Assembly (NCBI GenBank): GCA_028869095.1
Contig: JAGWTE010000004.1
Coordinates: 1-36,103 of the forward strand
Reading direction: 5' to 3'
Source of the DNA: Burkholderiales bacterium
GTDB taxonomy: Bacteria > Pseudomonadota > Gammaproteobacteria > Burkholderiales > Burkholderiaceae_C
DNA length: 36,103 bases
Shown here: positions 2,028 to 26,387 of the stretch, piece after piece
How the letters are laid out: each line of letters begins with the position of its first letter
Numbering within the stretch: the first letter of the stretch is position 1
Translations under genes and position numbers: made by a program
Notes under the pieces: model-generated
Database searches by the model: none
The model's input: only the letters and a program-made list of their open reading frames with translations
What the model was told of the DNA's origin: nothing

Positions 2028-2050
2028 CCGCAGTCCACCAGGAGCTGACG

Positions 2051-2548: not shown

Positions 2549-2608
2549 AACAGGCGGCTGACGGTTTTACGGGAGAATGCCCGGACCCCATTCATGGAGC
2601 CCGAGCGA

Positions 2609-3439: not shown

Positions 3440-3444
3440 CCCGA

Positions 3445-3459
3445 TGGCGCAGGGCGCCA
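3445..3459. terminator. Stem-loop between convergent genes
   Basis: TGGCGC-AGG-GCGCCA is a perfect 6-bp stem with a 3-nt loop. It lies between the stop of the SDR gene and the stop of the opposing NIT-ANTAR gene. The position suits a bidirectional terminator, but there is no U-run on either side. Confidence 0.4.
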
Positions 3460-3465
3460 CCCGAC

Positions 3466-4785
3466 TCACTTCTGGTTCGCGCCCCCCTGACTGGTGAAGA
3501 AGAAGTCCGGCAGCGACAAGGTGGCCTCGGCCACATCCAGCAGACGCCGGTTGTGGTCCATCGATGCCTTTTGCAGCGAGCGAAAGGCAGCCTCTTCGGT
3601 CAGACCCAGGCGCGACATCAAAGCGCCCTTGGCCCGCTCGATCACCTTGCGTTCATGCAAGGCCCGCCGTGCGGCATCCAATTCGACTTCCATGCTGGCC
3701 AGACGCGCGGACTGCGTCTGCAGCAGATCGGCCAATGAGGAGGCCTTGGCGCTGTCCTCGCCCACCTGGCTGCCCCCCGCACCGTCCGACAGGGTCGGCA
3801 AAACCGGGACCGCATCGGGCTGCTCGGACGCATTGAAGAACCGGTCCACGGCATGGGTGTGCGGCGGTGGGTTCTCGCGCAAACGTTTGATCAGGCCTTC
3901 TGAATCTTGCAGATCCTGTTGGGTGACTTGCAACTGGGCCTGGCAAGCTTGGCGCAGGCATTGCACCAAGTCGACCTGACGGCGCCCCAACTCGGAGATG
4001 CGCGCACTGGACACCTCAAACCAGCTGTCACTCAGGCCGGTGTCCAGGGCCGCGCCGGGCCGCGCGGTACACAGGGTGCGGCGCAGGCGCTCCAGTTGGG
4101 CCACATGGGGGGTCAACTGGTACTGCTGCCAGCTGGTGCGCAAGGCGGGTTCGGCAAACTCTTCGAACACCTGCAGGCTGCGCTCTTGCGCATCGATCAG
4201 GTGCATGACGCGTTGCTGCTCGGCCTCGTCACTGGCCCCCGACGCAAAGAGTTGGGCGCCCACAGCGCGCTCTTGTCCTGCCGCTTCTTTGCCCTGAACC
4301 AGGTGCAGAAATGCCACCAGCAGGCGCGAGATGCCTGGATACGAAGCCGCATCGGCCACATGAAAAATCAACTCGACCAGGCCCGCGATCACGCGGCTGA
4401 ACGCCGCCACGGCCTCATGCGCAGTGGGCGTGCGTTGGTCGATCTGCACCCGTAAATCAGCCAGGGCATCCAGGTCCAGCAGCACCCAGGCCATCAGCGA
4501 GAACATGCGCGCCGTGGCGCCGTGCTCTGGCACCAGCTGTTCGGCAAACAGCGTGCGCAATTCAGCCTCGATGGGTTTGGCCTTGTCCAGGGCCGATTGC
4601 CGTTCAAGCGCAAAGCGCTGGCCGCTGGAAGCCAGGTAAATGCTGGTCGCGCCCCGTTCACGCTGCAGCGCGTGGATGAGCTGGCCAATGACGTCCACCA
4701 GCTCGACCCGCCCGGCCAGATGCCTCACAGCATCAAGCTCCAGTTGTTTGGCGCGCAAAACGAGATGAGAAACAGACAGGGACAT
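3466..4785 (-). CDS. Nitrate/nitrite-sensing NIT-ANTAR transcription antiterminator (NasR-like)
   Basis: A 439-aa cytosolic RNA-binding regulator. The N-terminal ~300 residues carry a NIT domain (VIGQLIHALQRERGATSIY near residue 35), which in Klebsiella NasR binds nitrate/nitrite. A short coiled coil (QTSARLASMEVELDAAR-like) leads into a C-terminal ANTAR domain (ERAKGALMSRLGLTEEAAFR...). ANTAR domains bind paired hairpins in leader RNA and prevent termination. ATG 4785 is preferred to the TTG at 4800; its Shine-Dalgarno is weak. The gene lies downstream of nirB-nirD on the same strand, separated by 120 bp that contain a stem-loop. The nirB leader has the matching two-hairpin target, so nirBD is the likely regulon. 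The size and domain order agree with NasR. Confidence 0.9.
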   Translation of the reverse strand: MSLSVSHLVLRAKQLELDAVRHLAGRVELVDVIGQLIHALQRERGATSIYLASSGQRFALERQSALDKAKPIEAELRTLFAEQLVPEHGATARMFSLMAWVLLDLDALADLRVQIDQRTPTAHEAVAAFSRVIAGLVELIFHVADAASYPGISRLLVAFLHLVQGKEAAGQERAVGAQLFASGASDEAEQQRVMHLIDAQERSLQVFEEFAEPALRTSWQQYQLTPHVAQLERLRRTLCTARPGAALDTGLSDSWFEVSSARISELGRRQVDLVQCLRQACQAQLQVTQQDLQDSEGLIKRLRENPPPHTHAVDRFFNASEQPDAVPVLPTLSDGAGGSQVGEDSAKASSLADLLQTQSARLASMEVELDAARRALHERKVIERAKGALMSRLGLTEEAAFRSLQKASMDHNRRLLDVAEATLSLPDFFFTSQGGANQK

Positions 4786-4858
4786 GGAGATTGAGATCAA
4801 GGGGTCACAAGCAAAGACCCGATTGTCCGCAATTTATGCGCGCCTGTGTTGGCCGGCA

Positions 4859-4881
4859 GGCTGGGCCTGGTGGCCACAGCC
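4859..4881 (-). terminator. Stem-loop after nirD
   Basis: On the minus strand GGCTG-T-GGCC-ACCA-GGCC-CAGCC gives a 9-bp stem with one bulged U and a tetraloop, starting about 25 bases after the nirD stop. There is no U-tract, so it may be an RNA-stabilising or partial terminator hairpin separating nirBD from the NIT-ANTAR gene. Confidence 0.4.
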
Positions 4882-4905
4882 CCTGTCCCGCAGGTGCGGC
4901 TCGCC

Positions 4906-5244
4906 TCAGTGAGCGGCGACCAGCACCCGGCCACTGTCAACGCGCACCTCGTGAGCGCGCACCGACAGGTCGGGCGATTCCAGACACTCGCCTGTCTTCA
5001 GGTCGAAGTGATGTTTGTACAGCGGCGAGGCCACCACGATCTTGTCGCCCAGGCTGCCGATCAGCCCGCGTGACAACACGCTGGCGCCGTTTTTGGGGTC
5101 GACGTTGTCGATGGCGAAACACTGATCCTGGCCCACGCGGAAGACAGCCACGTGGCGGTCTTCCACCAGCGCGCACACGCCGGTGTTGGGCAGGATGTCG
5201 TCAAAGGCGCAAATGGCCGTCCAGTTCAAAGTCGTGGTGCTCAT
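4906..5244 (-). CDS. nirD: Assimilatory nitrite reductase small subunit NirD
   Basis: A 112-aa protein with a Rieske-like fold and no cluster ligands. The CxH/CxxH pairs of true Rieske proteins are absent (the loop reads PLYKHHFDLKTGECL), as is normal for NirD. It partners NirB in NADH-dependent reduction of nitrite to ammonium in the cytoplasm. ATG 5244 has an excellent AGGAAGG ribosome site; the longer ORF-track start at 5313 would run into nirB. It follows nirB by 22 bp in the same operon. Confidence 0.95.
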   Translation of the reverse strand: MSTTTLNWTAICAFDDILPNTGVCALVEDRHVAVFRVGQDQCFAIDNVDPKNGASVLSRGLIGSLGDKIVVASPLYKHHFDLKTGECLESPDLSVRAHEVRVDSGRVLVAAH

Positions 5245-5266
5245 GTCATTAGTCCTTCCTGGTCGA

Positions 5267-7798
5267 TCAAGCCTGGGTCGCGTCGATGGCGGCATCGGCA
5301 CGTTCTTCAACACGGGCCGGACGGATCTGGCCGCGTTCCTTGATGAACATGATTTGCTCGTCCTTCTTGTCGCTGTTGACGAAAGAGCGGAAGCGCTTGC
5401 GGGTTTCAGGATCGTTGACGGCGGTCTTCCATTCGCACTGATAGGTGTCGACCACGTGTTGCATCTGGGCTTCCAGCTCGGCGTTCAGGCCCAGGCTGTC
5501 CTTGAGGATCACGTCCTTGAGGTAGTCCAGGCCCCCCTCCAGGTTTTCGCGCCAGGTGCTGGTGCGTTGCAGGCGGTCGGCGGTGCGCACGTAGAACATC
5601 AGGAAGCGATCGACCAGCTTGATCAGATCGGCCTTGGTCAGGTCAGAGGCGATCAGCTCGGCATGGCGAGGCTTCATGCCGCCGTTGCCGCACACGTACA
5701 GGTTCCAGCCCTTGTCGGTGGCGATGATGCCCACGTCCTTGCCTTGGGCTTCTGCGCATTCACGGGTGCAGCCCGAGACACCGAACTTGATCTTGTGCGG
5801 GGCACGCAGGCCCTTGTAGCGGTTTTCCAGCTCCACAGCCAGGCCCACCGAATCATCGACGCCGTAACGGCACCAGGTCGAGCCCACGCAGCTCTTGACC
5901 GTGCGCAGCGACTTGCCATAGGCGTGGCCGGACTCGAAGCCGGCGTCGATCAACTCTTCCCAGATCGAGGGCAGTTGTTCCACACGGGCACCGAACAAGT
6001 CCACACGCTGACCACCGGTGATCTTGGTGTACAGGCCGTACTTCTTGGCCACTTGACCCACGGCGATCAAGCCATCAGGCGTGACTTCACCACCGGCCAT
6101 GCGAGGCACGACCGAGTAGGTGCCATCCTTTTGGATGTTGCCCAGGAAGTAGTCGTTGCTGTCTTGCAGACCAGCCAGGTCCTTCTTGAGGACGAAGTCG
6201 TTCCAGCACGACGCCAGGATGCTGGCAGCGGTGGGCTTGCAGATGTCGCAGCCCAGGCCCTTGCCATGCTTGGCCAGCAGTTCGTCGAAGCTGCGGATGT
6301 TGCCCACACGGATCATGTGGAACAGCTCTTGGCGCGAGTAAGCGAAGTGTTCGCACAGGTGGTTGTTCACCGCCATGCCTTGCTTCTTCATCTCCACCTT
6401 CATCACTTGCGTGACCAGGGGGACACAGCCGCCGCAAGTGGCACCGGCTTTGGTGCAGGCCTTGATCTCGCTGATGGAGGTGGCGCCTTCCGACACCGCC
6501 TTGCAGATCTGGCCCTTGGTGACGTTGTTGCACGAGCACAGTTGCGCACCATCGGGCAGCGCATCGGGGCCCAGGCCAGGCTTGGCCTTGCCATCGCTGG
6601 AAGGCAGGATCAGGAACTCGGGATCAGCCGGCAAGGTCAGGCCGTTGAGCGCCATTTGCAGCAGCGTGCCGTACTCGGTCGCATCGCCCACCAGCACGGC
6701 GCCCAGCAGCTTCTTGCCGTCTTCGCTCACCACGATCTTCTTGTAGATCTGGCGCAGCTCATCGGTGTAGTGGAAGGTGCGGGCGTTCGGGCTCTTGCCT
6801 TGGGCGTCGCCAATGCTGGCCACGTCCACGCCCATCAGCTTGAGCTTGGTGCTCATGTCAGCGCCCACAAAGGCCACGTCGTCCAGACCGGCAATGTGGC
6901 GGGCAGCCACGCGGGCCATGTCGTAGCCTGGGGCCACCAGGCCAAAGGTTTGGTCGTTCCAGGACGCGCACTCGCCGATGGCGTAGATGTTGTGGTCGCT
7001 GGTGCGGCATTCGCTGTCGATGACCACGCCACCCCGTGGGCCGATGGCCAGCACGCATTGGCGAGCCAGTTCATCACGTGGGCGGATGCCGGCGGAGAAC
7101 ACGATCATGTCGGTTTCCAGATAGCTGCCGTCTTCAAACACCATGCGGTGCAGGTGCTCGGCGCCATCGGTGATCTTCACGGTGCTGCGGCTGGTGTGAA
7201 CATGCAGGCCCAGCGCTTCGATCTTGTTGCGCAGGACACGGCCACCGCCTTCGTCCACTTGCGCAGCCATCAGGCGCGGTGCGAACTCCACCACATTGGT
7301 GTCCAGCCCCATGTCGCGCAAGGCCTTGGCGCATTCCAGGCCCAGCAAGCCGCCACCGACCACGACGCCGTTCTTGGACTTGGCACCGGCGGCCTTCATC
7401 GCATCCAGGTCTTCGATGGTGCGGTAGACAAAGCACTTGGCACGGTCACGGCCAGGCACAGGCGGCACGAAGGGCACCGAGCCGGTAGCCAGCACGAGTT
7501 TGTCGTAGTGCAGTTCTTCGCCGTCTGCGGTGGTCACCGTGTTGGTGCGGCGCTCAATGGCCACAGCCTTGGCAGCCAGGCGCAGGGTGAAACCGGTGCG
7601 CTCGAAGAAGCCGGGCTCGACCAGGGACAAGTCCTCAGCCGTCTTGCCGGAGAAGTATTCAGACAGGTGAACCCGGTCGTAAGCGGCACGGGGCTCTTCG
7701 CAAAGGACCGTGACTTCGGCGTCCTTGATGCCCGACTCAGCCAGGCTTTCCAGGAATTTGTGGCCAACCATGCCATGACCAACGACGACGATCTTCAT
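5267..7798 (-). CDS. nirB: Assimilatory nitrite reductase [NAD(P)H] large subunit NirB
   Basis: An 843-aa cytosolic flavo-iron-sulfur-sirohaem enzyme that reduces nitrite to ammonium with NAD(P)H. The N-terminal FAD/NAD module starts MKIVVVGHGMVGHKF and has a second dinucleotide site (VVVGGGLLGLE). It is followed by a BFD-like [2Fe-2S] domain with CSCNN and CGGC. The sirohaem/[4Fe-4S] part has the cysteine pattern CVGSTWC (about 637/643) and CTREC (677/681). The full expected length is present and no ligand is missing. ATG 7798 is preceded by AGGAG; the ORF-track start at 7894 lies in the leader. Upstream are a sigma-54 promoter, an NtrC site and a two-hairpin ANTAR target, so expression is predicted to need both nitrogen limitation and nitrate/nitrite. 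Confidence 0.96.
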   Translation of the reverse strand: MKIVVVGHGMVGHKFLESLAESGIKDAEVTVLCEEPRAAYDRVHLSEYFSGKTAEDLSLVEPGFFERTGFTLRLAAKAVAIERRTNTVTTADGEELHYDKLVLATGSVPFVPPVPGRDRAKCFVYRTIEDLDAMKAAGAKSKNGVVVGGGLLGLECAKALRDMGLDTNVVEFAPRLMAAQVDEGGGRVLRNKIEALGLHVHTSRSTVKITDGAEHLHRMVFEDGSYLETDMIVFSAGIRPRDELARQCVLAIGPRGGVVIDSECRTSDHNIYAIGECASWNDQTFGLVAPGYDMARVAARHIAGLDDVAFVGADMSTKLKLMGVDVASIGDAQGKSPNARTFHYTDELRQIYKKIVVSEDGKKLLGAVLVGDATEYGTLLQMALNGLTLPADPEFLILPSSDGKAKPGLGPDALPDGAQLCSCNNVTKGQICKAVSEGATSISEIKACTKAGATCGGCVPLVTQVMKVEMKKQGMAVNNHLCEHFAYSRQELFHMIRVGNIRSFDELLAKHGKGLGCDICKPTAASILASCWNDFVLKKDLAGLQDSNDYFLGNIQKDGTYSVVPRMAGGEVTPDGLIAVGQVAKKYGLYTKITGGQRVDLFGARVEQLPSIWEELIDAGFESGHAYGKSLRTVKSCVGSTWCRYGVDDSVGLAVELENRYKGLRAPHKIKFGVSGCTRECAEAQGKDVGIIATDKGWNLYVCGNGGMKPRHAELIASDLTKADLIKLVDRFLMFYVRTADRLQRTSTWRENLEGGLDYLKDVILKDSLGLNAELEAQMQHVVDTYQCEWKTAVNDPETRKRFRSFVNSDKKDEQIMFIKERGQIRPARVEERADAAIDATQA

Positions 7799-8513: not shown

Positions 8514-10709
8514 ATGACGATACTCGCAATGCGACTCTTTGTGTATCCCATCACGCTTATGTCTCACTACCTTCCCGCAGTCACTTCCCGGCGCCTGGTG
8601 CTGGCGATCGCCGCGCTGCTGGCATTGCTGTTGAGCACGGCCGGCGCATCGCTGTTGAAAGAACAGAGGATCGCGGCCCTGATCACCCAACAGGCTCAGG
8701 ACAATCAGGAGCGCACCGAGCTGTTTGCCGACATCAACGACAACGCCTTCGAGAGCACCCGCAAACTCATCATCTTGCTGACGGCACCGCGCGAAGTCCG
8801 GATGTATGCCCAAGAGGAAATCAACGCCGCCATCCGTCGGCTCGACAGCTCGATGAAGCTCTTGCCCCGCTACATCGACCAGGGCGATCACAACCCGGGC
8901 TTCGTCCTGATCGCCGATTGCCTGCGTCGCTACCAACAGTCTTCGACCCACACGGCCGCGCGCGTCAAGGCCGGCGACATGGCGGGAGCCCATCGCATGA
9001 TGCTCGAGACCACGGAATTTGACCTCTCCAGCCTGATTGGCGCCATCCAAAGCCTGCAGCACGCGGAACAACAACAGCAGGCCCAACGCGTGACCGCCAT
9101 GACGCAGCAACTGGATCGCTACAAGCAGTGGCTGCTGGTACTCAGCGCGACCGGCTTGCTGATCTCGATGGGCTTGTCTTGGTGGATCATCGCCGGCATT
9201 GCCGCACCGCTGCGCGCCGCAGCCAGTGCGGTGCGCAGCCTGGCCAAAGGGGATTACTCCAATCGCTGGACAGTGCAAAGCGGCGGAGAAGTCGGCGAAA
9301 TCGCCACCGCCTTCAACCACCTGGCCGACGAGGTGCAACGCCGCGAACAAGCCCTGCGCGATCTGATCGACATCGATCTGCTGACGGGTCTGGCGCAGCG
9401 CAATCGCTTCTTGTCCGACCATGCGGCCTTGGCCGATGCGGCCCGCCATGATGGCCCCCGCGTGGCCCTGTTCTGCTTCGACATCGAACGCCTGAAATCC
9501 ATCAACGCGGTGCTGGGCTTTGATGCCGGGGATGAGGTCATCGTCCAGGCCGCGCATCGCGCCAGCCAGTTGATTGGCGGCCCCAGCAAACTGGCCCGTC
9601 TGGGCGGTGGCACCTTGGCTGGCGTCATGACCCTGCACGCCGATGAAACCCCCATCGAGCGCGGCCACGCCTTCCAGCGTGCCATGGAGCATCGCATCCG
9701 CTGGCGGGAACACGATCTGGACATCGCCGTCACGGTGGGCCTTGCCTCAGGCCCGGAGCACGGCGCCAGTTTGCATGACCTGCTTCGCCGCGCCGAACAA
9801 GCCCTGTTCGATGCCAAGCGCCAGCGGCGCTCGCTGGTGACCTACAGCCCCTCGATCGAGGCCGCGCGCCTGTCCCACCTGAGCATGGTGTCAGAACTGC
9901 ACCAGGCCATTGAGCAAGGCCACCTGCGCCCCTTCCTGCAGGCCAAGCTGTGTCTGGCCACCAACCGCATCGTGGGTGCCGAAGCGCTGGTACGCTGGCA
10001 CCATCCCGAGCGCGGCATGATCCCGCCGGCCGAATTCATCCCGTTTGCAGAAAGCACCGGGCGGATTGTGGCCATCACCAACTACATGCTCGAACAGTGC
10101 ATTGCGCTGATGCAAAAGCGGTTGCCCGGCATGACAGTCGCCGTCAACGTGTCGACATACGATCTGCGTGACACCACCTTCCCGATGCGCTTGAAGGCAA
10201 CCCTGGAGCGGTATGGCGTTCCCGCCGAGCGCCTTCAGATCGAGATCACGGAAAGCGGCCTGCTGGACAGCGGCGATGTCCCGATTGCCTGCCTGAACGC
10301 CATACGCGAACTGGGCGTCAAAATCGCCATTGACGATTTTGGCACCGGCCAGTCGTCGCTGGCCTATCTGCAGAAACTGCCCGCGCAAGAATTGAAAATC
10401 GACCGTAGCTTCGTCGACCGATCGGATGCCGACCCGCAGCGGCGTGCCTTGCTGCAATCCATCGTGCGTCTGGGCCATGGCCTGGGCATGGTGGTCACCG
10501 CAGAGGGGGTCGAGACCCCGGGCGAGCTGGCCATGTTGCGCGAAGCCGGCTGCAACCTGGCTCAGGGTTACCTCATCGCCAAACCGATGGCCGTGGATGA
10601 CTTTTTAAAGCAGTTTGATCAGTTCAACGCGAGGGGCGCCGACGACAGCTTGGCCAACCTCGCCAGGAGATCTGCGGGGACCTCTTGCACCGTGTTGACC
10701 ACCCCTTGA
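8514..10709 (+). CDS. Membrane HAMP-GGDEF-EAL protein, predicted cyclic-di-GMP phosphodiesterase
   Basis: About 731 aa. There is a TM helix near residues 28-48, a four-helix-bundle-like periplasmic region, a second TM near 203-225, then HAMP (to ~275), GGDEF (~280-440) and EAL (~455-700). The GGDEF motif is degenerate: RLGGGTLAG replaces RxGGDEF, so cyclase activity is unlikely. The EAL domain keeps its known catalytic set: EALVRW, NVS, ITES, DDFGTG, KIDRSF, AEGVE and QGY. It should therefore hydrolyse c-di-GMP, perhaps with the GGDEF as a GTP-sensing module (inference). ATG 8514, 8529 and 8559 are all possible starts and none has a strong Shine-Dalgarno. The last 30 codons overlap the 3' end of the opposing PPDK-like gene. 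Confidence 0.9.
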   Translation: MTILAMRLFVYPITLMSHYLPAVTSRRLVLAIAALLALLLSTAGASLLKEQRIAALITQQAQDNQERTELFADINDNAFESTRKLIILLTAPREVRMYAQEEINAAIRRLDSSMKLLPRYIDQGDHNPGFVLIADCLRRYQQSSTHTAARVKAGDMAGAHRMMLETTEFDLSSLIGAIQSLQHAEQQQQAQRVTAMTQQLDRYKQWLLVLSATGLLISMGLSWWIIAGIAAPLRAAASAVRSLAKGDYSNRWTVQSGGEVGEIATAFNHLADEVQRREQALRDLIDIDLLTGLAQRNRFLSDHAALADAARHDGPRVALFCFDIERLKSINAVLGFDAGDEVIVQAAHRASQLIGGPSKLARLGGGTLAGVMTLHADETPIERGHAFQRAMEHRIRWREHDLDIAVTVGLASGPEHGASLHDLLRRAEQALFDAKRQRRSLVTYSPSIEAARLSHLSMVSELHQAIEQGHLRPFLQAKLCLATNRIVGAEALVRWHHPERGMIPPAEFIPFAESTGRIVAITNYMLEQCIALMQKRLPGMTVAVNVSTYDLRDTTFPMRLKATLERYGVPAERLQIEITESGLLDSGDVPIACLNAIRELGVKIAIDDFGTGQSSLAYLQKLPAQELKIDRSFVDRSDADPQRRALLQSIVRLGHGLGMVVTAEGVETPGELAMLREAGCNLAQGYLIAKPMAVDDFLKQFDQFNARGADDSLANLARRSAGTSCTVLTTP

Positions 10710-12238
10710 TAGATGGCGCCAGCATTGCCATCCAAGGTCATTGTGTCCCCTTCTTGCAGCACCGTGTCGCCAATGCGAATGCTGCGACCTGATTCATCCA
10801 GCTGCAACTCGCCACAGCCCACCAGGCAGACCTTGCCCAACTGGCGCGCCACCACCGAGGCATGTGAGGTACGGGCACCACGCTGCGTCAGCAAGCCTTG
10901 AGCCGATTCCAGGGCCGCGATGTCGCTGGTTTCGGCATCCCGCCTGACCAGAATGAATGCAGCACCGTCGGCCTGGCGAGCTTTGGCGCGCTCCTGGTCC
11001 AACACGATCTCGCCAATGGCCACACCGGTGCAGGCTGTGGCCGCATGGGCGAGCGGGGTCAAGGGCTCGCCATCGGGTGACACGACGCGCCGAGACGCCA
11101 GCACGCCGGCATCAAGCCCCTCGGTGCGCGCACGTGCCACCTCCGGGGTGATCAAGCCTTCGTCCAGCATGTCCAAGGCAATGCGCGCGGCCGCCTGGGG
11201 CGTGCGTTTGCCATGGCGGGTCTGCAGCATGTACAGCTGCCCCTCTTGCACCGTGAACTCGATGTCTTGCATGTCCATCAAGGCGTGCTCCAGCTGCCGG
11301 GCCGCGTCTTGCAGGGCTTGCCAGGCTGCGGGCAAGACGGTCGCCAACTCGTCACTGCCGTGGGCACTGCGGCGACCTGACACCACGTCCTCGCCTTGCG
11401 CATTGAACAAAAAGTCCACCCACAGTCGCGGCTCGCCCGTTGCGGGGTCGCGCGTGAACCCCACCCCGGCCCCAGAGCGCCCGCCTGCATTGCCAAACAC
11501 CATGGTCTGCACGGTCACCGCTGTCCCCATCGAATCAGACAGCTGATTGACCCGGCGATACTCGCAGGCCTTGTCCGACTGCCAGGACGCCATCACCGCC
11601 TGGATGGCTTGCACCAGTTGCCGATGCGGATCCTGCGGAAAGGCGTGCCCCGCCCCTTGCTCATACACGGCCAGATACCGGCGCGTGAGCTCCCGCAGTT
11701 CCGAAAAATCCAAGTCCCGTTCATCCCGGCCTGCGGCCAGGGCCAGGGTTTCCGCCTCGAACACCTGGGCATCCAGCCCCGCCACCACTTCGCCATAACT
11801 GGCCACCAGACGGCGGTAGGAGTCCCACACCAAGCGGGGGTTGCCGGTTTGCCTCAAAAAGCCCGGCACAGTGGCATCGCACAGACCGATGTTGAGCAAG
11901 GTTTCCATCATGCCGGGCATGGACACCGGGGCCCCCGATCGCACCGACAGCAACAAGGGACGACGCGGGTCTCCCAGGGTCTGCCCCTGCCGGGTCTGCA
12001 AGGCAGCCAGACCTGCCTGCCAGGTGTCGAGGTGGCTGGCCCGCTCGCGACTGGTTTCATCTGCGCACCAGGCCGTGCCCAACACAAAGGCCGGTGGCAC
12101 GGGCAAGCCGAGGTCCGCCATGCGCAACAGGTTATAGGCCTTGAAGCCCATGCCCTGGGACGTGACCTGGCCTTGCTGTGCAGATCGTTGCTCTGGCGAG
12201 CCACATCCGATGAAGTAGAGCGAGTCGAGCGTGTTCAT
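10619..12238 (-). CDS. Two-domain PPDK-like protein (nucleotide-binding and phosphohistidine domains only)
   Basis: A 539-aa protein closely resembling the first two thirds of pyruvate phosphate dikinase. The ATP-grasp part has SVRSGAPVSMPGMMETLL, then GVGFTRDPATGE and NAQGEDVVSG, then DIEFTVQEGQLYMLQTR. The swivelling phosphohistidine domain has ARTSHASVVARQLG with the catalytic His near 459. It ends about 80 residues later. The PEP/pyruvate TIM barrel of full PPDK (~880 aa) is absent, and no remnant follows, because the gene runs into the opposite-strand EAL gene. It could autophosphorylate on His and pass phosphate elsewhere, but it cannot be a complete PPDK. Its ATG overlaps the upstream stop (ATGA), so it is coupled to the PhoU/DUF47-like protein gene. 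Confidence 0.88.
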   Translation of the reverse strand: MNTLDSLYFIGCGSPEQRSAQQGQVTSQGMGFKAYNLLRMADLGLPVPPAFVLGTAWCADETSRERASHLDTWQAGLAALQTRQGQTLGDPRRPLLLSVRSGAPVSMPGMMETLLNIGLCDATVPGFLRQTGNPRLVWDSYRRLVASYGEVVAGLDAQVFEAETLALAAGRDERDLDFSELRELTRRYLAVYEQGAGHAFPQDPHRQLVQAIQAVMASWQSDKACEYRRVNQLSDSMGTAVTVQTMVFGNAGGRSGAGVGFTRDPATGEPRLWVDFLFNAQGEDVVSGRRSAHGSDELATVLPAAWQALQDAARQLEHALMDMQDIEFTVQEGQLYMLQTRHGKRTPQAAARIALDMLDEGLITPEVARARTEGLDAGVLASRRVVSPDGEPLTPLAHAATACTGVAIGEIVLDQERAKARQADGAAFILVRRDAETSDIAALESAQGLLTQRGARTSHASVVARQLGKVCLVGCGELQLDESGRSIRIGDTVLQEGDTMTLDGNAGAIYQGVVNTVQEVPADLLARLAKLSSAPLALN

Positions 12239-14181
12239 GAGGTGATGCCCGTTTGGGTGAAGACCAATTCGCGCAGGCGGTAACCCGCGACCAACAATCG
12301 ATCAGAGGCCAATTCCAAAGTCTGAGCCAGGTCATTGACCAGCATCAGCGAGGGCGCATCGTCCACCACACGCAAGATGGTGCGGCGAGCGTGGCGCAGC
12401 AATTCATCACACTGACGCTCGGCATGCAAGACCGCCCACAAGGCGTCCAGGAAGGCATCGTTGTCTGCCGCATCACTGCCCGCCCCCAAGGTGCGCGCAA
12501 TGGTCAAGGCCTTGACATGATCCTGTGTCGACTGCAGCACGGTCTGGGCCAGCCGGGACAAGGCCTGCCGCACATCGCCATTCCAGCCCTTTTGATGGTG
12601 ATCGGCGATCAAGCTGATCAGGAAGGCGGCCTCTTCCAGTGCGTCCGCCACATCGTCAGACAGCCCCATCAGTTGCGCGGCCGGTTGCCAACGCGGTTGG
12701 CGTGCCGCCTCGTCACGCGCCTGCATGACCAAGTGATCAGCGCGACGCTCCCACACCTTGGCGCGTGCAGCCAGGTCCTGCGCCACATCGCGCAAGCCAT
12801 CGTGGCGGTGCGACAGCGCGTCGCTGACGGCTTGAGCCAGGGTCTGACAATAAGCGGCATGCTCATCGAGCAGGTCAAACTCCGCACCCCGCTTTTGCAC
12901 CTGCCGCGTCAGCAACATGCGGGTCTCGTCAGCCACCAAGGCCAGGGGTTGTCCGTTCAACAGGGCCTTGCAAGACAGACGCATCACGTCCAGCAAGAAG
13001 GCTTGCGCATTGGCCTCGCCCAAGACGGCATCCAGCCGATCACCGATTCGGAAGGCGCCCTCGCCCGCGGCCTCCATCGCACGATAGATGAGCTGCTCCC
13101 CCCCGGCCTTCAACCACGCCATGTGGCCGATCTCCAGCCGAGCCGCTTCCGTGAGCACCGCAATGGCGGGGGACTTGCCGATGAACGCCTGCAAGCGCTT
13201 GCGAGCACGGTTCCAGTCAATCAGGAAAACGATGCGAGCGCCGATGCCTTCCAGCGCGGTCGCCACCCCTTCGTCATCCGGACAGTCAAAGGTGGCGGTG
13301 CCCACGGTGTAGGCCACGCCCTGGTTCAAATCAGCGGACACGCGCGACTCGGGCGTCGACCAGCGCGCCCCCAGCGACGTGAGTTGCGCCTGAAAGAAAG
13401 CAAACCGGCTGCGATGCAGATCTGAATAGGTCAAGGTGATGGCCAGGTTCTGAACCTGGATCACCAGCACATGCGCATCGTTGGTGCCAATGTCATTTTG
13501 AAGCATCAGGCGGTCACCGTCGCGCGTGGCGGCGGTATCCAGGCCGGGGTGATCGAGCTTGAGCATCGCCGTGCGGTGCAGCCCTCGCATGAAGGCACTG
13601 ACCAATGGACGGTCTTCGTCGTGGAGCAGCCAGACATGCGCCCCATCCACTTCTTCGCTGGCCAGGTCCGCCGCCAAGCGGTTGATCTGTTTGTGCAGAT
13701 CCATGATCAAGATGTGAAGGCTGTCGCCGTCGGCGCGCTTGCCATGCGTCAGGCTGCGAAGTTGCGCCACATCAAGCTGCTCGCCCTTCAACGCGGCCAG
13801 CCAGTCCAGCCAATGCCGCACGCGCAGGTGGGGCTCTGCATCGTTGGTTGTGGACTCCAGCACCGGCCGCGCCATGATGACCAGGTCATCGTGCAGACAC
13901 TGAAGCAGGCGTTCCAGATCGGGTACCAACAGCGCATCGTCAATGCGACTGGCCCCCGCCACCAACTCCAGCAACCAAGACCCTGAGGTGATGCCCGCCG
14001 CCGCCAGCTCGCGCGACAAGTCCATGACCCCTTGGTGCGCATGTTCTGCGTGCACACAAGCCGCTTGCAACACCGTCAGGTACAGCTTGAGGCGATCATT
14101 GGCCAACAAAGCGGCCTTGACCCACACAGGCAACAACAACCCTCGCTGTCCCAGCGATACCAAGGCCTGATTCTTGTTCAT
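12235..14181 (-). CDS. Unknown 648-aa protein with a PhoU/DUF47-like helical C-terminus
   Basis: Predicted to be soluble and mostly helical, with no signal peptide. The N-terminal ~150 residues are helical, and residues ~150-330 look alpha/beta (HVLVIQVQNLAITLTY). The C-terminal ~250 residues are long helices with spaced acidic/aspartate motifs (VWERRADHLVMQAR, DDVADALEEAAFLI, LELASDRLLVAGYRLREL) that resemble the metal-binding helices of PhoU/DUF47 proteins. That resemblance is my inference by eye. ATG 14181 follows GGGAG at a good distance and is preferred to the start at 14196. The gene is coupled by ATGA to the PPDK-like gene and is divergent from the CHAD gene, which suggests a phosphate- or polyphosphate-linked role. 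I do not know a named family for the whole protein. Confidence 0.8.
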   Translation of the reverse strand: MNKNQALVSLGQRGLLLPVWVKAALLANDRLKLYLTVLQAACVHAEHAHQGVMDLSRELAAAGITSGSWLLELVAGASRIDDALLVPDLERLLQCLHDDLVIMARPVLESTTNDAEPHLRVRHWLDWLAALKGEQLDVAQLRSLTHGKRADGDSLHILIMDLHKQINRLAADLASEEVDGAHVWLLHDEDRPLVSAFMRGLHRTAMLKLDHPGLDTAATRDGDRLMLQNDIGTNDAHVLVIQVQNLAITLTYSDLHRSRFAFFQAQLTSLGARWSTPESRVSADLNQGVAYTVGTATFDCPDDEGVATALEGIGARIVFLIDWNRARKRLQAFIGKSPAIAVLTEAARLEIGHMAWLKAGGEQLIYRAMEAAGEGAFRIGDRLDAVLGEANAQAFLLDVMRLSCKALLNGQPLALVADETRMLLTRQVQKRGAEFDLLDEHAAYCQTLAQAVSDALSHRHDGLRDVAQDLAARAKVWERRADHLVMQARDEAARQPRWQPAAQLMGLSDDVADALEEAAFLISLIADHHQKGWNGDVRQALSRLAQTVLQSTQDHVKALTIARTLGAGSDAADNDAFLDALWAVLHAERQCDELLRHARRTILRVVDDAPSLMLVNDLAQTLELASDRLLVAGYRLRELVFTQTGITS

Positions 14182-14395
14182 GGTGAATGCTCCCAATGCT
14201 TGCCGATTTCAGTCTGGGTCGCTTGTGTGACGGCGAAGTGAAAGGCGCCTCAAGCTGACAAGCGCGCCTGCACAGGCTTGTTTCAGATCAAATGGCAAAA
14301 CGCCAAGCCCAACCCGCTCGCACGCCCGGCTCAATCAGGCGCAAAATGGTTTCAACGCCAAACAGGGCGAGCACGGCCCGGCTGGAGTGATGCAC
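14182..14395. other. Divergent intergenic region between the PhoU-like and CHAD genes
   Basis: This 214-bp spacer should hold both promoters. The clearest structure is an inverted repeat ACAAGC...GCTTGT (14258-14281) with inner CTG/CAG pairing. I found no confident -35/-10 pair and no Pho-box-like 7-bp direct repeats by eye. Confidence 0.4.
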
Positions 14396-15259
14396 ATGGC
14401 CTTGATCGGATGGGACTGTCAGATTGCCCCGGGCGCAGACACCGACCTCGCCCTGCGCCAGATGGTCGCTGCCTGCCTGCGGCAGATCGTGCCCAACGCC
14501 CAGGCCATCGCTGCAGGCGTGGCCAACCCAGAGCACTTGCACCAACTTCGCATTGGGCTGCGCGGGCTCCGCAGCGCCCTGCATGTGTTCAGTGACTGGT
14601 CCAGCGCAGTGGCCCCCGACTGGCAGCCTCGATTGGGCGAGGTGTTCATCCAACTGGGCCGCACACGGGATCGCGACATGCTGCAAGCCTCCGTGCTGCC
14701 TGATTTGCGGGCTGTCCATGCCCCGCTGGCTGAGTTGCCACCGGCTCCGCCACGCGACCTCCTCGCCAGGGACGTGCTGAACCACCCGGATTGCACCCAG
14801 TTGTTTCGTGATCTGATCGCCTTCGCCGACGGTTCGCTGCTGCCCTCTCGCACCTCGCCCAAGCAGTCAAGAAAGAGGCTGAGGCAGGCAGCGGGTGCGC
14901 GCTTCGCGCATCTTCATCGTCAACTTTTAAGAGATGCCAAGGCCTACCCGCAACTCAATGAAGTCCAGCGACACCGCGTTCGCAAGCGCCTCAAACGGCT
15001 GCGCTATGGCGTGGAGTTGTTGGCCTCGGTGTTCCCGAAAGGCGCCGTCAAGCCCTATCTGGCGCACTTGCAGCCAGCGCAGGCGATCCTCGGTCAGTAC
15101 AACGATCTGGTGGTGGCTGAACAGGTGTTCAAGCAACAGCTGCCAGCCGATCCACGCGCGTGGTTTGCGCTGGGCTGGATCGCAGCCCGGCAGGCCGCAT
15201 TGCGACAAGACGCGAGCCGCGCCCTGATCCGATTGGCCCGGGCGCCCACGTTCTGGTGA
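14396..15259 (+). CDS. CHAD domain-containing protein
   Basis: About 287 aa and all-helical. It shows the conserved-histidine alpha-helical domain: an N-terminal repeat with HQLRIGLRGLRSAL (about residue 45) and a second with RHRVRKRLKRLRYGVELL (about residue 195), followed by LQPAQAILGQYNDL. CHAD domains are known to bind inorganic polyphosphate through basic surfaces. The CYTH (triphosphatase) domain found in YgiF-type fusions is absent. ATG 14396 is favoured because GGAG lies 8 bases upstream; ATG 14390 is the alternative. The gene is divergent from the PhoU-like/PPDK-like pair, which suggests a shared phosphate theme, and is convergent with the DUF2894 gene. Confidence 0.9.
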   Translation: MALIGWDCQIAPGADTDLALRQMVAACLRQIVPNAQAIAAGVANPEHLHQLRIGLRGLRSALHVFSDWSSAVAPDWQPRLGEVFIQLGRTRDRDMLQASVLPDLRAVHAPLAELPPAPPRDLLARDVLNHPDCTQLFRDLIAFADGSLLPSRTSPKQSRKRLRQAAGARFAHLHRQLLRDAKAYPQLNEVQRHRVRKRLKRLRYGVELLASVFPKGAVKPYLAHLQPAQAILGQYNDLVVAEQVFKQQLPADPRAWFALGWIAARQAALRQDASRALIRLARAPTFW

Positions 15260-15295: not shown

Positions 15296-15916
15296 CTACT
15301 TCTTGGCCCGGCCACGTCGCACCGGCTTGGCACCGCTCAATGCATGCTGCTGGTTGAGTTGCTCCAACCACAGCAAAGATTCTGCCTGAGACAGAAACCG
15401 CCGCAGGTAGTCGGGAGACAGGCCGCGCATCAAGCTCAGCGAACGCAGCATCAGCATGTGCGAATTGAGCGGGCCGGCGTTTTCAGGCCCGCGCCCTATG
15501 GCTTGATCCACCTGCTGTTCTGCCGCGATCTTGGACCACACCTCACTGAAGCCGCGCACGCTCTTCAACTCTGGCCGGCCCACACTGGCCCCACCGACTG
15601 CGCCCTCGCTGCTGTCGTGCGTGCGGCTGTGGATGTAGCGATTCAAATCGGCCAAGGGGGTGCTGCCAGCCTTGGGCAGTCTGGCCACGACGCGATGGGC
15701 GTCTTCCACGCGTTCTGGGCCACCGGATTGTGCCCATCGGCCGGTGTACGCCGTCAAGGCGTCTTGCAGCTTGCCCGCCAAGATCTGCCGCACCGCTTCA
15801 GGCTGGGCCTGCATGCGCTGAGCCAGCACCTGCATGTAATGAAAGCGAGCCGGGTCCAGACGATCGGCCCCCTCGCTTTGCAAGGCCTGCAGCGATGCCA
15901 GCAAGGACTCACTCAT
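15296..15916 (-). CDS. DUF2894 family protein
   Basis: About 206 aa, soluble. It starts MSESLLASLQALQSEGADRLD and has a helical N-terminal ~75 residues, a variable middle, and a C-terminal helical block (LMRGLSPDYLRRFLSQAESLLWLEQLN) with a basic RRGRAKK tail. I recognise it as the DUF2894 protein that accompanies DUF802, OmpA and DUF3348 genes in Burkholderiales. Function is unknown. Its ATG overlaps the OmpA-family stop by 8 nt (ATGAGTGA), so it is the last gene of a coupled four-gene operon. The ORF-track start at 15964 would extend deep into the OmpA gene and is rejected. Confidence 0.85.
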   Translation of the reverse strand: MSESLLASLQALQSEGADRLDPARFHYMQVLAQRMQAQPEAVRQILAGKLQDALTAYTGRWAQSGGPERVEDAHRVVARLPKAGSTPLADLNRYIHSRTHDSSEGAVGGASVGRPELKSVRGFSEVWSKIAAEQQVDQAIGRGPENAGPLNSHMLMLRSLSLMRGLSPDYLRRFLSQAESLLWLEQLNQQHALSGAKPVRRGRAKK

Positions 15917-16565
15917 GGGCGTCAGGCTGGGTGTTGGCAGACCGCGGCACCGGCGCCATCTCAACGCGGCGATTCAGCGCCCGCCCCTTTTCATCGCTGT
16001 TGGAGGCCACTGGCTGCTCCGCCCCAAAGGCCGCAGCAAACACCTGATTTGAAGGCATGCCTTCTTCGATCAAAGCACGGGTCACCGTCAGGGCGCGCTG
16101 GGCCGACAGCTCCAGGTTGTCGGCAAAGCGACGGTCTTTGCCATCACGCAGGCGCTTGTCATCGGTGAAGCCGCTGACCATCAACATCTCATTGCGCTCG
16201 CCCAGATAGACCCGCAGGGGATTCACCAGGCTCTTCAGAATCTGCCGGCCATCAGGACGCAATTCATCCGAATTCACCGGGAACAACACGCTGCCGCTGA
16301 TGCCAATGCGGCCATTGTTCAAGGTGACGCGCCCCGTTTGCAAGGGGATGGCCAAGGCCTTTTCCAAGGCCATGCGGCGCTGCTCTTCCGCGCGGCGTTT
16401 TTCGATCTCGGCATTCAGGTTGGACACCAGGTCCAGCTGGACCACCAGCACCCCCACCAGGATCAGCACGAAAGCCCCCAGCAAACCCGCCATCAGGTCA
16501 CCGAAGACGGCCCAGACCGGCGCCGTCTGCTCGATGGCATCGTCCTGTTCGTCCACATCAATCAT
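15909..16565 (-). CDS. OmpA-family, MotB/ZorB-like inner-membrane protein
   Basis: A 218-aa protein with a short cytosolic N-terminus, one TM helix (residues ~18-43) and a C-terminal OmpA peptidoglycan-binding domain. The TM begins WAVFGDLMAGLLGAFVLI, where an Asp (about residue 23) sits exactly where MotB, ExbD and ZorB carry the ion-binding Asp (compare YADFMTAMMAFF of MotB). The OmpA part has VSGFTDD, LSAQRALTVTRAL and ALNRRVE, keeping the Asp and Arg known to bind diaminopimelate. A short helical linker (EIEKRRAEEQRR) follows the TM. The start overlaps the DUF802 stop (ATGA). It is the predicted stator/plug partner of the DUF802 protein. Confidence 0.88.
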   Translation of the reverse strand: MIDVDEQDDAIEQTAPVWAVFGDLMAGLLGAFVLILVGVLVVQLDLVSNLNAEIEKRRAEEQRRMALEKALAIPLQTGRVTLNNGRIGISGSVLFPVNSDELRPDGRQILKSLVNPLRVYLGERNEMLMVSGFTDDKRLRDGKDRRFADNLELSAQRALTVTRALIEEGMPSNQVFAAAFGAEQPVASNSDEKGRALNRRVEMAPVPRSANTQPDAHE

Positions 16566-18733
16566 CGAGCGCCACCCACGGCTTGCATGGCCGGCTTGCT
16601 GTGCAGGCGGCGCATGTCTTCCACGATGCCTTGTTGCGAGCTGATGCTCAGGTCAATCACCTCGCGCGCCTGGGCCACGTAGTAGGCCAGCTGTTCGTCG
16701 CTGCGCGTCATCGATTGCTGGATGGCGCCTTCCATGCGCTGCAGGCTGTCGATCAGCTTCTCGTTGGTCGCGTTGAACAGCTGGACGCCATGGCTGAAGG
16801 ACTCGCCCAGGCTGGCCAACTCCACGGCGCTGCTGGTCACGTGCGCGGCCACGTCGGCCACCTTGCCGGCTTGTGCGCTCAGCGATTCAGACAACTGGCT
16901 GCCCGCCTTGTCCAGCACCTGGGCAGCCGAGTTGACCATCGATTCAATCATCGCCTGCTGCTGGCCCGAAGCCTGGTTGATGGTCTGCAGCAAGGCACTC
17001 ATCTGCGCCATCATCGCCGTGCGCTCTTCCAGCGCGAGGTTGTCACGCGTGGTCAGCTGGCTCATTTCCTGGCGCAATTGCGTGATCACGGCCGCCGCAG
17101 CTTGGGGCACCTCGGCGGCGGTCTGCAGCAAGCGGGTCAAGGGGGTTTCCAGGGCCGATCCCAAGGCTGCCAAATGGCCCGCCACGGCGGCTTGCAACTC
17201 ATCCAATCGGTTCACGGCAGCCTGGCCCCGTGCGGCCTCCTCGTCTCGCAGCGCATTCAGTTCGGTACGCCACACGCTGGCCAGTTGGTCCATACGCTCG
17301 CCTTGGGATTGAATCCACGCGGACTCGGTCTCCATGCGCGAACGAATCAAGGCCTCAGACTGGTTCACCAATTGGGTCACGTCGCTCAAGGTCTGGCTGA
17401 CGTGTTCGCTGGCTTGTTCTGTGATCTGGCCGGCGGTGCTCTCCAAGGTCTGGCAGATCGCTTGCTGTTGCGCCATGGTCTGTGCACCCACTTGCTGCCA
17501 CTCCGTCGACAGCTGGGCGGCCATCTCACGCAGGGACTGCGTCCAGGCTGCCATGCGCTGGCGATCCGCCTCGGCCTGATCGGTTTGCGATCGGTTCGCG
17601 GTCTCGTTGATCGATGCCAACACCGCGTTGGAGCGCTGCTCGAACACCTCGGTGAACGACTTCAAGGCACGCTCGACCCCGTCCACCAATTGGGTGCTGC
17701 TTTGCGTGTGGGTCTGCAGCGCCGTCATCCACGTGTCGGACACCGTGCGTGCGGTGGACTCAAACTGCGACGACAAGCCCGTCAATTGGGTTTGCGTGGT
17801 GTCGATCAGGCGCTGGTGGCTGCGTTGCGACTCTTGCGCGATCTCGACCATCGCCGACGCCACCACGGGCTGGATGCTCTCACCCGCTGCTTTGGCGCTG
17901 GCGGTCAGGCTGTCTTTCAAAGACTTCCCAACCGTGTCAGACAGCTCGGTATAAGCCACCGACACATCGCGGTGGAACTGCGCTTGCTGCCCCAGCAACT
18001 GCTGATTCAACTGATCGCTGCGGCGCTCCAGCCCATCCATCATGGCCTGCAGCTTGTTGACGACCTCGGGCAGGGCATGGGCTTGCTGTTGCAGCGCCTT
18101 GAAGGTCTCCTGGCGTTGATGGGTCAGGGACAAGGGGCGGAACACCGTGGCAATGCGGGTGTCCAGCTGACGGGCCACATCCACCCGCTCACGGCGGCTG
18201 ATGGCCGAGATCAAACCCAGCATGGCGGACGCGGCCACACCGGCCACCGAGGTGCCAAACGACAAGCCCAAGCCTTTGATAGGCGCGGCCAAGGCCGAGC
18301 GAATGGCTTGCAGATCCGACGAGCCTTCCAGCGCGAACACCGCGCCCTTGAAGGTCACCACCATGCCCAAGAAAGTGCCCAGCATGCCCAGCATGACCAA
18401 GAGCCCCACCAGGTAGGGCGTCAACGCCGGACCGGGCAAAGCCACGCGCTCCCCCTCAATGCGCAGCCGCACCGGATTTTGCAATGAAGGATGCAAGCGC
18501 TGCAACCAGGTGCCGAATTCGGTCAAGGGCTGCGGGATGTCGGCCAGCGCATCCACCAAGGTCGCGGTGGCCGCACGAAACTGCTTGAGCTCCAAGGCAC
18601 CCAGCAAGTAGACAGCGGCGATCAGCGCCGTCATGGTCAAGGCCAACCAGCTGACGCCGACAAAGCCCACGCCCACCCAAACCACGGCCAACAAGCCCAT
18701 CGCAAAGGCCACAGCAAAAACGATTCTGTTCAT
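16562..18733 (-). CDS. DUF802 protein: MotA/TolQ/ZorA-like membrane part with a long coiled-coil tail
   Basis: 723 aa. There are two N-terminal TM helices (~1-22 and ~25-47), a cytosolic loop, then TM3 (~105-128, MLGMLGTFLGMVVTF) and TM4 (~152-178, GLSFGTSVAGVAASAMLGL). This is the arrangement and glycine/threonine pattern of MotA, TolQ and ExbB. The remaining ~530 residues form a Gln/Ser/Ala-rich helical coiled-coil tail that resembles methyl-accepting proteins but lacks their signalling hairpin. DUF802 repeats fall in this tail. Zorya ZorA has the same layout of a MotA-like base with a long tail. The start overlaps the DUF3348 stop and the stop overlaps the OmpA-gene start, both as ATGA. 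No methylesterase or chemotaxis gene is near. Confidence 0.85.
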   Translation of the reverse strand: MNRIVFAVAFAMGLLAVVWVGVGFVGVSWLALTMTALIAAVYLLGALELKQFRAATATLVDALADIPQPLTEFGTWLQRLHPSLQNPVRLRIEGERVALPGPALTPYLVGLLVMLGMLGTFLGMVVTFKGAVFALEGSSDLQAIRSALAAPIKGLGLSFGTSVAGVAASAMLGLISAISRRERVDVARQLDTRIATVFRPLSLTHQRQETFKALQQQAHALPEVVNKLQAMMDGLERRSDQLNQQLLGQQAQFHRDVSVAYTELSDTVGKSLKDSLTASAKAAGESIQPVVASAMVEIAQESQRSHQRLIDTTQTQLTGLSSQFESTARTVSDTWMTALQTHTQSSTQLVDGVERALKSFTEVFEQRSNAVLASINETANRSQTDQAEADRQRMAAWTQSLREMAAQLSTEWQQVGAQTMAQQQAICQTLESTAGQITEQASEHVSQTLSDVTQLVNQSEALIRSRMETESAWIQSQGERMDQLASVWRTELNALRDEEAARGQAAVNRLDELQAAVAGHLAALGSALETPLTRLLQTAAEVPQAAAAVITQLRQEMSQLTTRDNLALEERTAMMAQMSALLQTINQASGQQQAMIESMVNSAAQVLDKAGSQLSESLSAQAGKVADVAAHVTSSAVELASLGESFSHGVQLFNATNEKLIDSLQRMEGAIQQSMTRSDEQLAYYVAQAREVIDLSISSQQGIVEDMRRLHSKPAMQAVGGAR

Positions 18734-19407
18734 GGGTGCTTCTTAACCTCGTTGCTCAATGCCTCGATCAACCCCAAGACGGGTTGCAATCGAACGTCCA
18801 CTTCTGCCACCAACATCCCCTGCCACTCCTTGCGAAAGGTGTCCAACCAGCCAGGCTGGTCCGCCTTGCGCAAGGCCTCAAACCGCCGCTCCAGGAACAC
18901 CGGCACGGAGGCCATCAGCTTTTGCTCACGCGCGCCCAACATCTGCTCCATCAAGGCGTCCAGTGCGGCCAGTTGCCGCAACGGCGTCGAGACCCGAGAC
19001 AGCACTTGCCGAACCTGGGACCGCAGTGGCGCCACCTTCGATTCGATCTGGCGCTGCTGCTCCTGATGGCGCTGGTAGTACGCCGCGTACTCGGCCGCTC
19101 TTTCACCATCTGGTTCAGTGGGCATCAAGGGCAGACTGGCCTTGACGGTCTTCACCAGGCCGGATCGCACATGCTGAAATTCAGCCTCCACCGCCGCCAA
19201 GTTGGCTGACAGTCCCTGCCCAGGTCGTTGCGGCGCAAACGTCTGGATGGACTGCAAGGCCGCATCCAGGCGGACGGTGCCGACGGCGTCCAGCCACAAG
19301 CCCAATCGCTCCGCCACGTCCTGTTTGGAGGACTCCACCTCGACGCTGGTCAAATCACTGAGCAAACGGACAAGTTTTGAACGGCTGATGTTCCGGTGCA
19401 GATTCAT
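18730..19407 (-). CDS. DUF3348 family protein
   Basis: 225 aa, soluble and mostly helical with no signal peptide. It begins MNLHRNISRSKLVRLLSDL, has a segment with AAEYAAYYQRHQEQQRQIE, and a C-terminal region with PVFLERRFEALR and GWLDTFRKEWQGML. I recognise it as DUF3348, a family of unknown role tied to DUF802 operons in Burkholderiales. It is the first gene of the four-gene operon and overlaps DUF802 by ATGA. There is no Shine-Dalgarno; instead a stem-loop ends five bases before the ATG. It follows regA by 56 bp on the same strand, so read-through from the cyo-reg operon is possible. Confidence 0.85.
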   Translation of the reverse strand: MNLHRNISRSKLVRLLSDLTSVEVESSKQDVAERLGLWLDAVGTVRLDAALQSIQTFAPQRPGQGLSANLAAVEAEFQHVRSGLVKTVKASLPLMPTEPDGERAAEYAAYYQRHQEQQRQIESKVAPLRSQVRQVLSRVSTPLRQLAALDALMEQMLGAREQKLMASVPVFLERRFEALRKADQPGWLDTFRKEWQGMLVAEVDVRLQPVLGLIEALSNEVKKHP

Positions 19408-19463: not shown

Positions 19464-20000
19464 TCACTTCACCCGCTGCTTTTCCAGCTTGCGGGCCAGG
19501 GTCCGGCGGTGCATGCCCAGGCGCCGGGCGGTCTCGGAGATGTTGAAGCCCGTCTCGGCCAAGGTTTCGTGGATGCGCTCCCACTCCAGGGTCTTGATGG
19601 AGGTGGTCCGCTCGGTCAACTCCACATCCGTGTCGCCCTCCACTTTGGAGAACGCCTCTTCGATGTCGTCCGTGTTGGCGGGCTTGGCCAGGTAATGGCG
19701 CGCCCCCAGTTTGATCGCTTCGACCGCCGTGGAGATGCTGGCATAGCCCGTCAGCACCACGATCACCATGTGCGGGTCGTGCGCATGCAAGTCTTGCACG
19801 CAGGCCAAGCCCGAATCGCCCCCCGCCAGCTTCAAGTCCACCACGGCATAGCCCGGCCGGTGCGTTTGCAGCAGCGCTTTGACCTCGGCCAGGCTGGCCG
19901 CCCGCAGCACGGCGTAGCCGCGGCGTTCGAACGAGCGCGACAGGGTGCGAGCAAAGGCCTCGTCGTCTTCGACAATGAGCAATTGGCGTGGGGCTTCCAT
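19464..20000 (-). CDS. regA: Redox response regulator, RegA/PrrA/ActR family
   Basis: A 178-aa two-domain regulator. The receiver has acidic EDD at 11-13, the phospho-acceptor Asp55 (YAVVDLKL), and the LAKPAN lysine. A short linker leads to a Fis-type helix-turn-helix (ISETARRLGMHRRTLARKL) that is nearly invariant in RegA/PrrA/ActR/RoxR proteins. It is the cognate partner of RegB, whose gene lies 6 bp upstream, and probably controls respiratory and redox genes. Its presence at the end of the cyo operon suggests feedback on the oxidase. Full length; no missing residues. Confidence 0.92.
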   Translation of the reverse strand: MEAPRQLLIVEDDEAFARTLSRSFERRGYAVLRAASLAEVKALLQTHRPGYAVVDLKLAGGDSGLACVQDLHAHDPHMVIVVLTGYASISTAVEAIKLGARHYLAKPANTDDIEEAFSKVEGDTDVELTERTTSIKTLEWERIHETLAETGFNISETARRLGMHRRTLARKLEKQRVK

Positions 20001-20006
20001 GGGTCG

Positions 20007-23143: not shown

Positions 23144-23167
23144 GATGTTTACCAAAACCTCCGACGA

Positions 23168-25168: not shown

Positions 25169-25226
25169 CTTCGATCTCGTAAAGGCGTGATGCGCGACCC
25201 AAGCGGGTCACGCGGGATTCGTTGGA

Positions 25227-26312: not shown

Positions 26313-26342
26313 CTGGGTTACCCGTGAAGGGGAAAACGAGAG

Positions 26343-26359
26343 TTGCGCGACGGGCGCAA
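26343..26359. promoter_or_regulatory. Inverted repeat in the cyoA leader/promoter
   Basis: TTGCGC-GACGG-GCGCAA is a perfect dyad with 6-bp arms and 5-bp spacer, 31 bp upstream of the cyoA ATG. The GCG...CGC core is reminiscent of RegA-type boxes, which would fit the regBA genes in the operon, but this is inference. It could also fold as an RNA hairpin. Confidence 0.45.
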
Positions 26360-26370
26360 ATGTATCTTGA

Positions 26371-26384: not shown

Positions 26385-26387
26385 CCA

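Follow-up and report, generated by a model that had tools for sequence, protein, structure and literature searches.

A barrel-less PPDK homologue and its PhoU/DUF47-containing partner form a conserved pair that looks like a two-protein phosphate-transfer system, apparently induced at low oxygen

The window analyzed here is a stretch of 36,103 nucleotides from an Aquabacterium-related Burkholderiales MAG that is 72% complete. It carries two overlapping genes on the minus strand, which we call PHU and PPDKf, a CHAD gene that runs divergently from them, and an FNR/Anr-type box (TTGATCTGAAACAA) that sits midway between PHU and CHAD (Table 1). The sequence-only reading of this DNA had joined the PPDK-like gene to a 648-aa protein by an ATGA overlap, and the open reading frames are indeed arranged in this way, the junction reading tcATGAac. 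An alternative TTG start at 14196 would give a PHU of 653 aa. At its other end, PPDKf overlaps a convergent GGDEF-EAL gene tail to tail by 91 bp (window 10619-10709).

Table 1. Features of the PHU-PPDKf locus, with positions in the window
Feature	Position	Strand	Description
PPDKf, 539-aa barrel-less PPDK homologue	10619-12238	minus	ATP-grasp PPDK_N and swivelling phosphohistidine domain; catalytic His459 in TSHASVVAR
ATGA overlap	12235-12238	minus	PHU stop/PPDKf start (translational coupling)
PHU, 648-aa partner (from ATG)	12235-14181	minus	Residues 1-425 without known fold match; about 430-648 PhoU/DUF47 (PhoU_div)
FNR/Anr-type box TTGATCTGAAACAA	14278-14291	minus	9/10 fixed bases; 110 bp upstream of PHU ATG, 96 bp upstream of CHAD start
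CHAD-domain protein, 290 aa, GTG start	14387-15259	plus, divergent	Pfam CHAD E=4.7e-38; recurrent accessory neighbor

PPDK is taught as an enzyme of carbon metabolism. The PPDK-like gene in the window had been described as retaining the ATP-grasp and phosphohistidine motifs and ending where the barrel should begin, and Pfam, the NCBIfam model TIGR01828 and a residue alignment agree with that description. PPDKf matches PPDK_N (E=5e-37) and the PEP-utilizers mobile domain PF00391 (E=3.5e-18), and the Pfam profile search found no PEP-utilizers_C in it. The PPDK model TIGR01828 covers the protein at model positions 16-514 of 865 only, and the alignment to Clostridium symbiosum PPDK (42% identity over residues 30-518) ends at residue 514 of 874. 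Residues K22, R92, E323, Q335, R337, T453 and H455 of the C. symbiosum enzyme are all retained in PPDKf proteins, and D321 is retained in 13 of 14 PPDKf sequences; H455, which is invariant, corresponds to His459 of PPDKf. Thus PPDKf shares with PPDK (EC 2.7.9.1) all of the ATP-site residues and the catalytic histidine, but it has no PEP/pyruvate barrel and is accompanied by an obligate partner, PHU. Because the catalytic residues are intact and VadK (Rv1127c), a barrel-less PPDK of Mycobacterium tuberculosis, autophosphorylates on His422 (PMC13400623), the ATP-grasp and His domains of PPDKf should yield phosphohistidine from ATP.

We searched 101 relatives once with each protein. Both PHU and PPDKf were present in 18 sequence-complete genomes and neither occurred alone in any; the sole exceptions to co-occurrence among the 101 relatives (G009 and G032) are contig ends. 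A scan of GTDB species genomes gave 265 loci with a PHU relative, of which we analyzed the best 80; these are the closest by similarity rather than a random sample, and their hosts include Aquabacterium, Paraburkholderia, Cupriavidus, Thauera, Azotobacter, Halomonas and Mesorhizobium, among others. Among these best 80, PPDKf lies directly downstream of PHU in all 78 loci with readable sequence, and the exact 4-bp overlap occurs in 46 of approximately 65 loci. Across 61 loci, pairwise identity in PHU tracks that in PPDKf (r=0.91). A class-wide sample contained only one other genome with PHU, where PPDKf again adjoins it, and no PHU-PPDKf fusion protein was seen. Co-occurrence is perfect across Beta-, Gamma- and Alphaproteobacteria, and the pair is found in the model organisms Azotobacter vinelandii and Paraburkholderia xenovorans LB400. 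In other words, PHU and PPDKf are an invariant, co-conserved unit.

Database labels such as 'phosphate transport regulator / DUF47' and 'PEP/pyruvate-binding protein' hide the link between the two proteins. For example, a Methylocella plasmid encodes the pair, annotated as a DUF47 family protein and a PEP/pyruvate-binding protein. Within the literature collection searched, no paper joined DUF47 with pyruvate phosphate dikinase, and a broader query also returned no relevant paper.

The truncation of PPDKf is genuine and uniform across loci. In 76 of 78 loci the frame stops 0-23 aa past the conserved region that ends with the His domain, and the remaining two are split frames. In a phylogenetic tree the PPDKf proteins form a single clade (support 100/100) that excludes full-length PPDKs as well as other barrel-less PPDKs. 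The missing barrel might be taken to mean that PPDKf is a decayed PPDK lying beside an unrelated regulator, with no joint function. We find this hardly credible, as it is contradicted by conservation: the catalytic residues are intact, the proteins are monophyletic and end just after the His domain, and the overlap and the co-occurrence are maintained across three classes.

A barrel acting in trans, which would restore PPDK, was also sought. Near-complete relatives encode no stand-alone PEP barrel, PF02896 being found in them only in frames of approximately 625 aa, which is the size of PtsI, and of 820-890 aa, the size of PEP synthase; the window's own genome, given its completeness, is not decisive. 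The suggestion in the sequence-only reading that this is something other than a PPDK is supported.

The C-terminal 215 or so residues of PHU form a PhoU/DUF47 domain according to both profile and structure searches, which confirms a resemblance proposed in the sequence-only reading. The window copy taken alone matches Pfam PhoU_div weakly (E=0.008, below the cut-off), but 56 of 65 family members match at E<=0.01, the best at 8.5e-10, and two relatives examined singly pass the cut-off (E=5e-8). Using the AlphaFold model of PHU (pLDDT 87), Foldseek retrieved the PhoU-like structures 3l39 (E=2.6e-4) as well as 2iiu and 2olt (TM-scores of up to 0.82 by target length). E/DxxxD motifs are metal-binding in PhoU, and four of them (E478-D482, D509-D513, E588-D592 and E623-D627) are invariant across 65 PHU sequences. 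PHU therefore resembles the PhoU/DUF47 (PhoU_div) proteins SO_3770 and BT4638 in fold and motifs, but its domain stands behind a 425-aa novel domain and is apparently coupled to a predicted kinase instead of a Pit or Pst transporter. In our general neighbor survey, Pit was outside the 25 commonest neighbor families of either half-set.

Residues 1-425 of PHU are predicted with high confidence (pLDDT 91, pTM 0.80). They have no Pfam or NCBIfam match, their model has no PDB fold match at E<0.001, and a viral fold library gave no significant match; the N-terminal domain would count as a new protein domain without known fold match. It contains the most conserved stretch of PHU (residues 151-270, conservation 0.78). 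Invariant residues include H156, D161, H163, D190, H211, Q228, N229, D230, D235 and H237, and further along Y252, H256, R259, D322, W323, N324, R327, K328 and H353; conservation of these polar positions suggests a binding or catalytic site. Foldseek links to YbjN/AmyR (probability approximately 0.6), histidine-kinase and McsB folds were weak (E>0.04) and were set aside.

Since PHU and PPDKf are strictly paired and PPDK is the closest profile to PPDKf, one could suppose that PHU takes over the role of the barrel, leaving the pair able to convert pyruvate and PEP into each other. A GTND sequence in the N-terminal domain resembles a barrel motif, and we considered whether the domain is a PPDK/PtsI barrel; this was ruled out, because the predicted structure contains no TIM barrel and no sequence, profile or fold search links it to the PPDK/PtsI barrel. 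A split PPDK is thus very improbable.

We consider it probable, with moderate confidence, that PHU and PPDKf make up a low-oxygen two-protein phosphohistidine dikinase in which the partner replaces the PEP barrel. The obligate pairing, the coupling, the intact catalytic residues, the loss of the barrel, the domain make-up, the operator motif and the neighbors described below are all directly supported. PPDKf would transfer the beta-phosphoryl group from ATP to His459 in its swivelling domain, converting ATP to AMP as PPDK does; the precedent of VadK makes such autophosphorylation likely. The phosphorylated swivelling domain would then visit PHU rather than a PEP/pyruvate barrel, and the phosphoryl group would be received by PHU or pass through it. 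In PHU, the N-terminal domain may bind the phosphoryl acceptor or may itself be the receiver, a role to which its conserved residues point, while the PhoU/DUF47 domain would most likely make this transfer sensitive to phosphate or metal status. Induction of the operon at low oxygen would come from an FNR/Anr/FixK-type regulator, and the operon would serve a low-oxygen program centered on acetyl phosphate (Pta-AckA) and PHB and, in many lineages, also on CHAD proteins, which bind polyphosphate. Dikinases of this type use a third domain to present the acceptor, and PHU is a natural candidate for this third piece because it is obligate and translationally coupled. A DUF47 protein would thereby gain a concrete, testable biochemical role.

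Pieces of PEPS/PPDK-type dikinases lie on two proteins in HpeHI, CreHI and PpsAB (PMC12167813). In these systems, as proposed for PHU, phosphohistidine chemistry is split over two proteins and the partner provides the acceptor site. However, they are divided at a different point, with the ATP-grasp domain alone on one protein and the swivel together with the acceptor domain on the other, whereas PPDKf holds ATP-grasp and swivel in one protein; this counts against the proposed mechanism, as do the failure to find a PHU-PPDKf fusion, the missing fold match of the PHU N-terminal domain and the weakness or absence of the FNR box, described below, at about half of the loci. PHU also differs from them in having no match to the rifampin-phosphotransferase fold: Pfam, PDB sequence and fold searches detected no acceptor domain of that type in it. 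As a more specific and tentative proposal, which we hold less firmly, the pair may be a split dikinase of a new type. A novel fold would replace the PEP barrel, the pair would phosphorylate an acceptor or draw phosphate from it, with polyphosphate or an acyl-phosphate-linked metabolite as candidates, and the activity would belong to a Proteobacterial low-oxygen response.

The main rival to the split dikinase is a regulatory, VadK-like role. Autophosphorylated PPDKf would regulate enzymes of its neighborhood (Pta, AckA, PhaC and others) by binding or phosphotransfer, PHU would be a phosphate- or metal-sensing regulator or scaffold, and there would be no small-molecule product. The two proteins have features in common, as both keep the ATP-grasp and phosphohistidine domains of PPDK, have lost the barrel and have a dedicated operon partner. 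Furthermore, VadK not only autophosphorylates but also binds enzymes of the methylcitrate cycle (PMC13400623). Domains of the DUF47/PhoU type are typical regulatory modules, and the neighbors of the pair are enzymes of central metabolism. Against this, the large additional domain of PHU is the more conserved one, and its many invariant polar residues go beyond the needs of a scaffold. The neighbors vary while PHU-PPDKf is invariant, so that no fixed protein client is visible. The partner of VadK has approximately 200 aa and is not a DUF47 protein, and its context is the methylcitrate cycle rather than pta, ackA, phaC or CHAD. Sampled VadK-like plasmid proteins (from Rhodococcus, Novosphingobium and Paraburkholderia), which likewise have a partner of approximately 200 aa, fall outside the 100/100 PHU-linked clade in a tree that does not include M. 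tuberculosis VadK itself. We regard the VadK-like role as unlikely, although it carries appreciable weight. The pair represents another lineage, separate from the sampled VadK-like proteins, in which the ATP and phosphohistidine half of PPDK was freed and given a new partner.

Other truncated PPDKs were encountered during the survey. Three loci (L139 at 1706-6494, from Rhodococcus sp. 008 pR8L1, together with L140 and L141) encode barrel-less or odd PPDKs alongside a small stand-alone His-domain protein of the PEP-utiliser type and a protein of approximately 200 aa, whose gene is reminiscent of Rv1126c, VadK's partner in its operon; the Rhodococcus set also includes a DUF7065 protein. On the Skermanella mucosa plasmid pSM-2 (L148, 1084-2790), a 569-aa barrel-less PPDK overlaps the end of a pyruvate kinase gene, and it represents a separate truncated PPDK with a different partner. 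In a phage collection, 33 Vibrio phage records contain PPDK-like sequence matching the query at <60% identity.

The divergent gene had been read as encoding a CHAD protein, and its Pfam match bears this out. Joint conservation of all three genes, which the sequence-only reading had named as a check, held for PHU and PPDKf in the 18 complete genomes and 78 of 78 loci but not for CHAD, which lies near the pair in 14 of 80 loci. This is nevertheless far above the approximately 0.2 expected, a figure based on about 109 CHAD matches in 150 genomes of the order, 0.90 Mb of flanks and an assumed mean genome of approximately 3.8 Mb. Among the 233 genes lying no more than three genes away from the pair, as called by a simple codon-usage script, CHAD was the commonest Pfam family with 12, ahead of MaoC (9), Pta (8), FabI-type reductases (7), PhaC (5) and AckA (3); profile searches of 91 loci gave 15 for CHAD, 20 for PhaC, 17 each for FabI and MaoC-Pta, and 6 for AckA. 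The CHAD neighbors are often CYTH-CHAD. On the PHU tree the CHAD label changes 10 times, at least 8 of these forced by well-supported branches; the link has therefore been gained or lost repeatedly, and it is therefore a functional hint rather than a core part of the system.

A polyphosphate role for the pair is possible and stays alive because CHAD is enriched nearby, but it is a minor rival. Here PHU would pass phosphate from or to CHAD-held polyphosphate, and PPDKf would link this to AMP and ATP, for instance by making ATP from AMP under oxygen limitation. PPDK chemistry is reversible, CHAD domains bind polyphosphate (PMC6537752), and CHAD is the most frequent neighbor with its 8-10 label changes. 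Yet over 80% of loci lack a nearby CHAD gene, making CHAD an accessory neighbor of a minority of pairs, and the ppk, ppx and PPK2 families are absent from the 25 most frequent neighbor families. We consider such a module improbable.

In Herbaspirillum, phaC2 forms an operon with pta-ackA and is up in high phosphate (PMC8222739), an independent hint that acetyl phosphate, PHB and phosphate are connected through this neighborhood. Together with the FNR-type operator, the pta-ackA-fabI-phaC neighbors implicate carbon and energy metabolism at low oxygen no less than phosphate; the sequence-only reading included neither of these, nor the novel N-terminal domain of PHU.

Beyond the CHAD gene, the minus strand of the window (15296-19407) encodes DUF2894, OmpA (PRK09040), MotA/DUF802 and DUF3348 proteins in a row, an uncharacterized motor-like cluster whose MotA/DUF802 protein has a weak ZorA-like match (E=7e-9, below the cut-off). 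These genes were rejected as part of the system, as they are not carried along in relatives with the pair.

An FNR/Anr-type palindrome (TTGATnnnnATCAA) is found upstream of PHU. Of 73 loci, 18 match it at 9 or more of its 10 fixed bases, where first-order Markov resampling predicts 0.95, and 41 match at 8 or more, where it predicts 6.6. The boxes mostly lie 73-128 bp before the PHU start, and control regions were clean, with 0 of 75 in the coding region and 1 of 67 in a distal region. Because the position is conserved and the controls are clean, a chance origin is unlikely, although the loci share ancestry and the counts cannot be treated as independent; about half of the loci have a weak box or none. 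The operon is apparently induced at low oxygen, and the pair would be a conserved and so far unstudied addition to the FNR-type response to low oxygen, beside genes for acetate, PHB and polyphosphate.

Farther along the window (19464-26660, minus strand) lies a redox two-component pair of the RegA/RegB(ActS/PrrB) type, followed by the cytochrome bo oxidase genes cyoB and cyoA. Homologues of this RegA/RegB and cytochrome bo oxidase set also flank the PHU-PPDKf pair in two other loci, L039 and L084.
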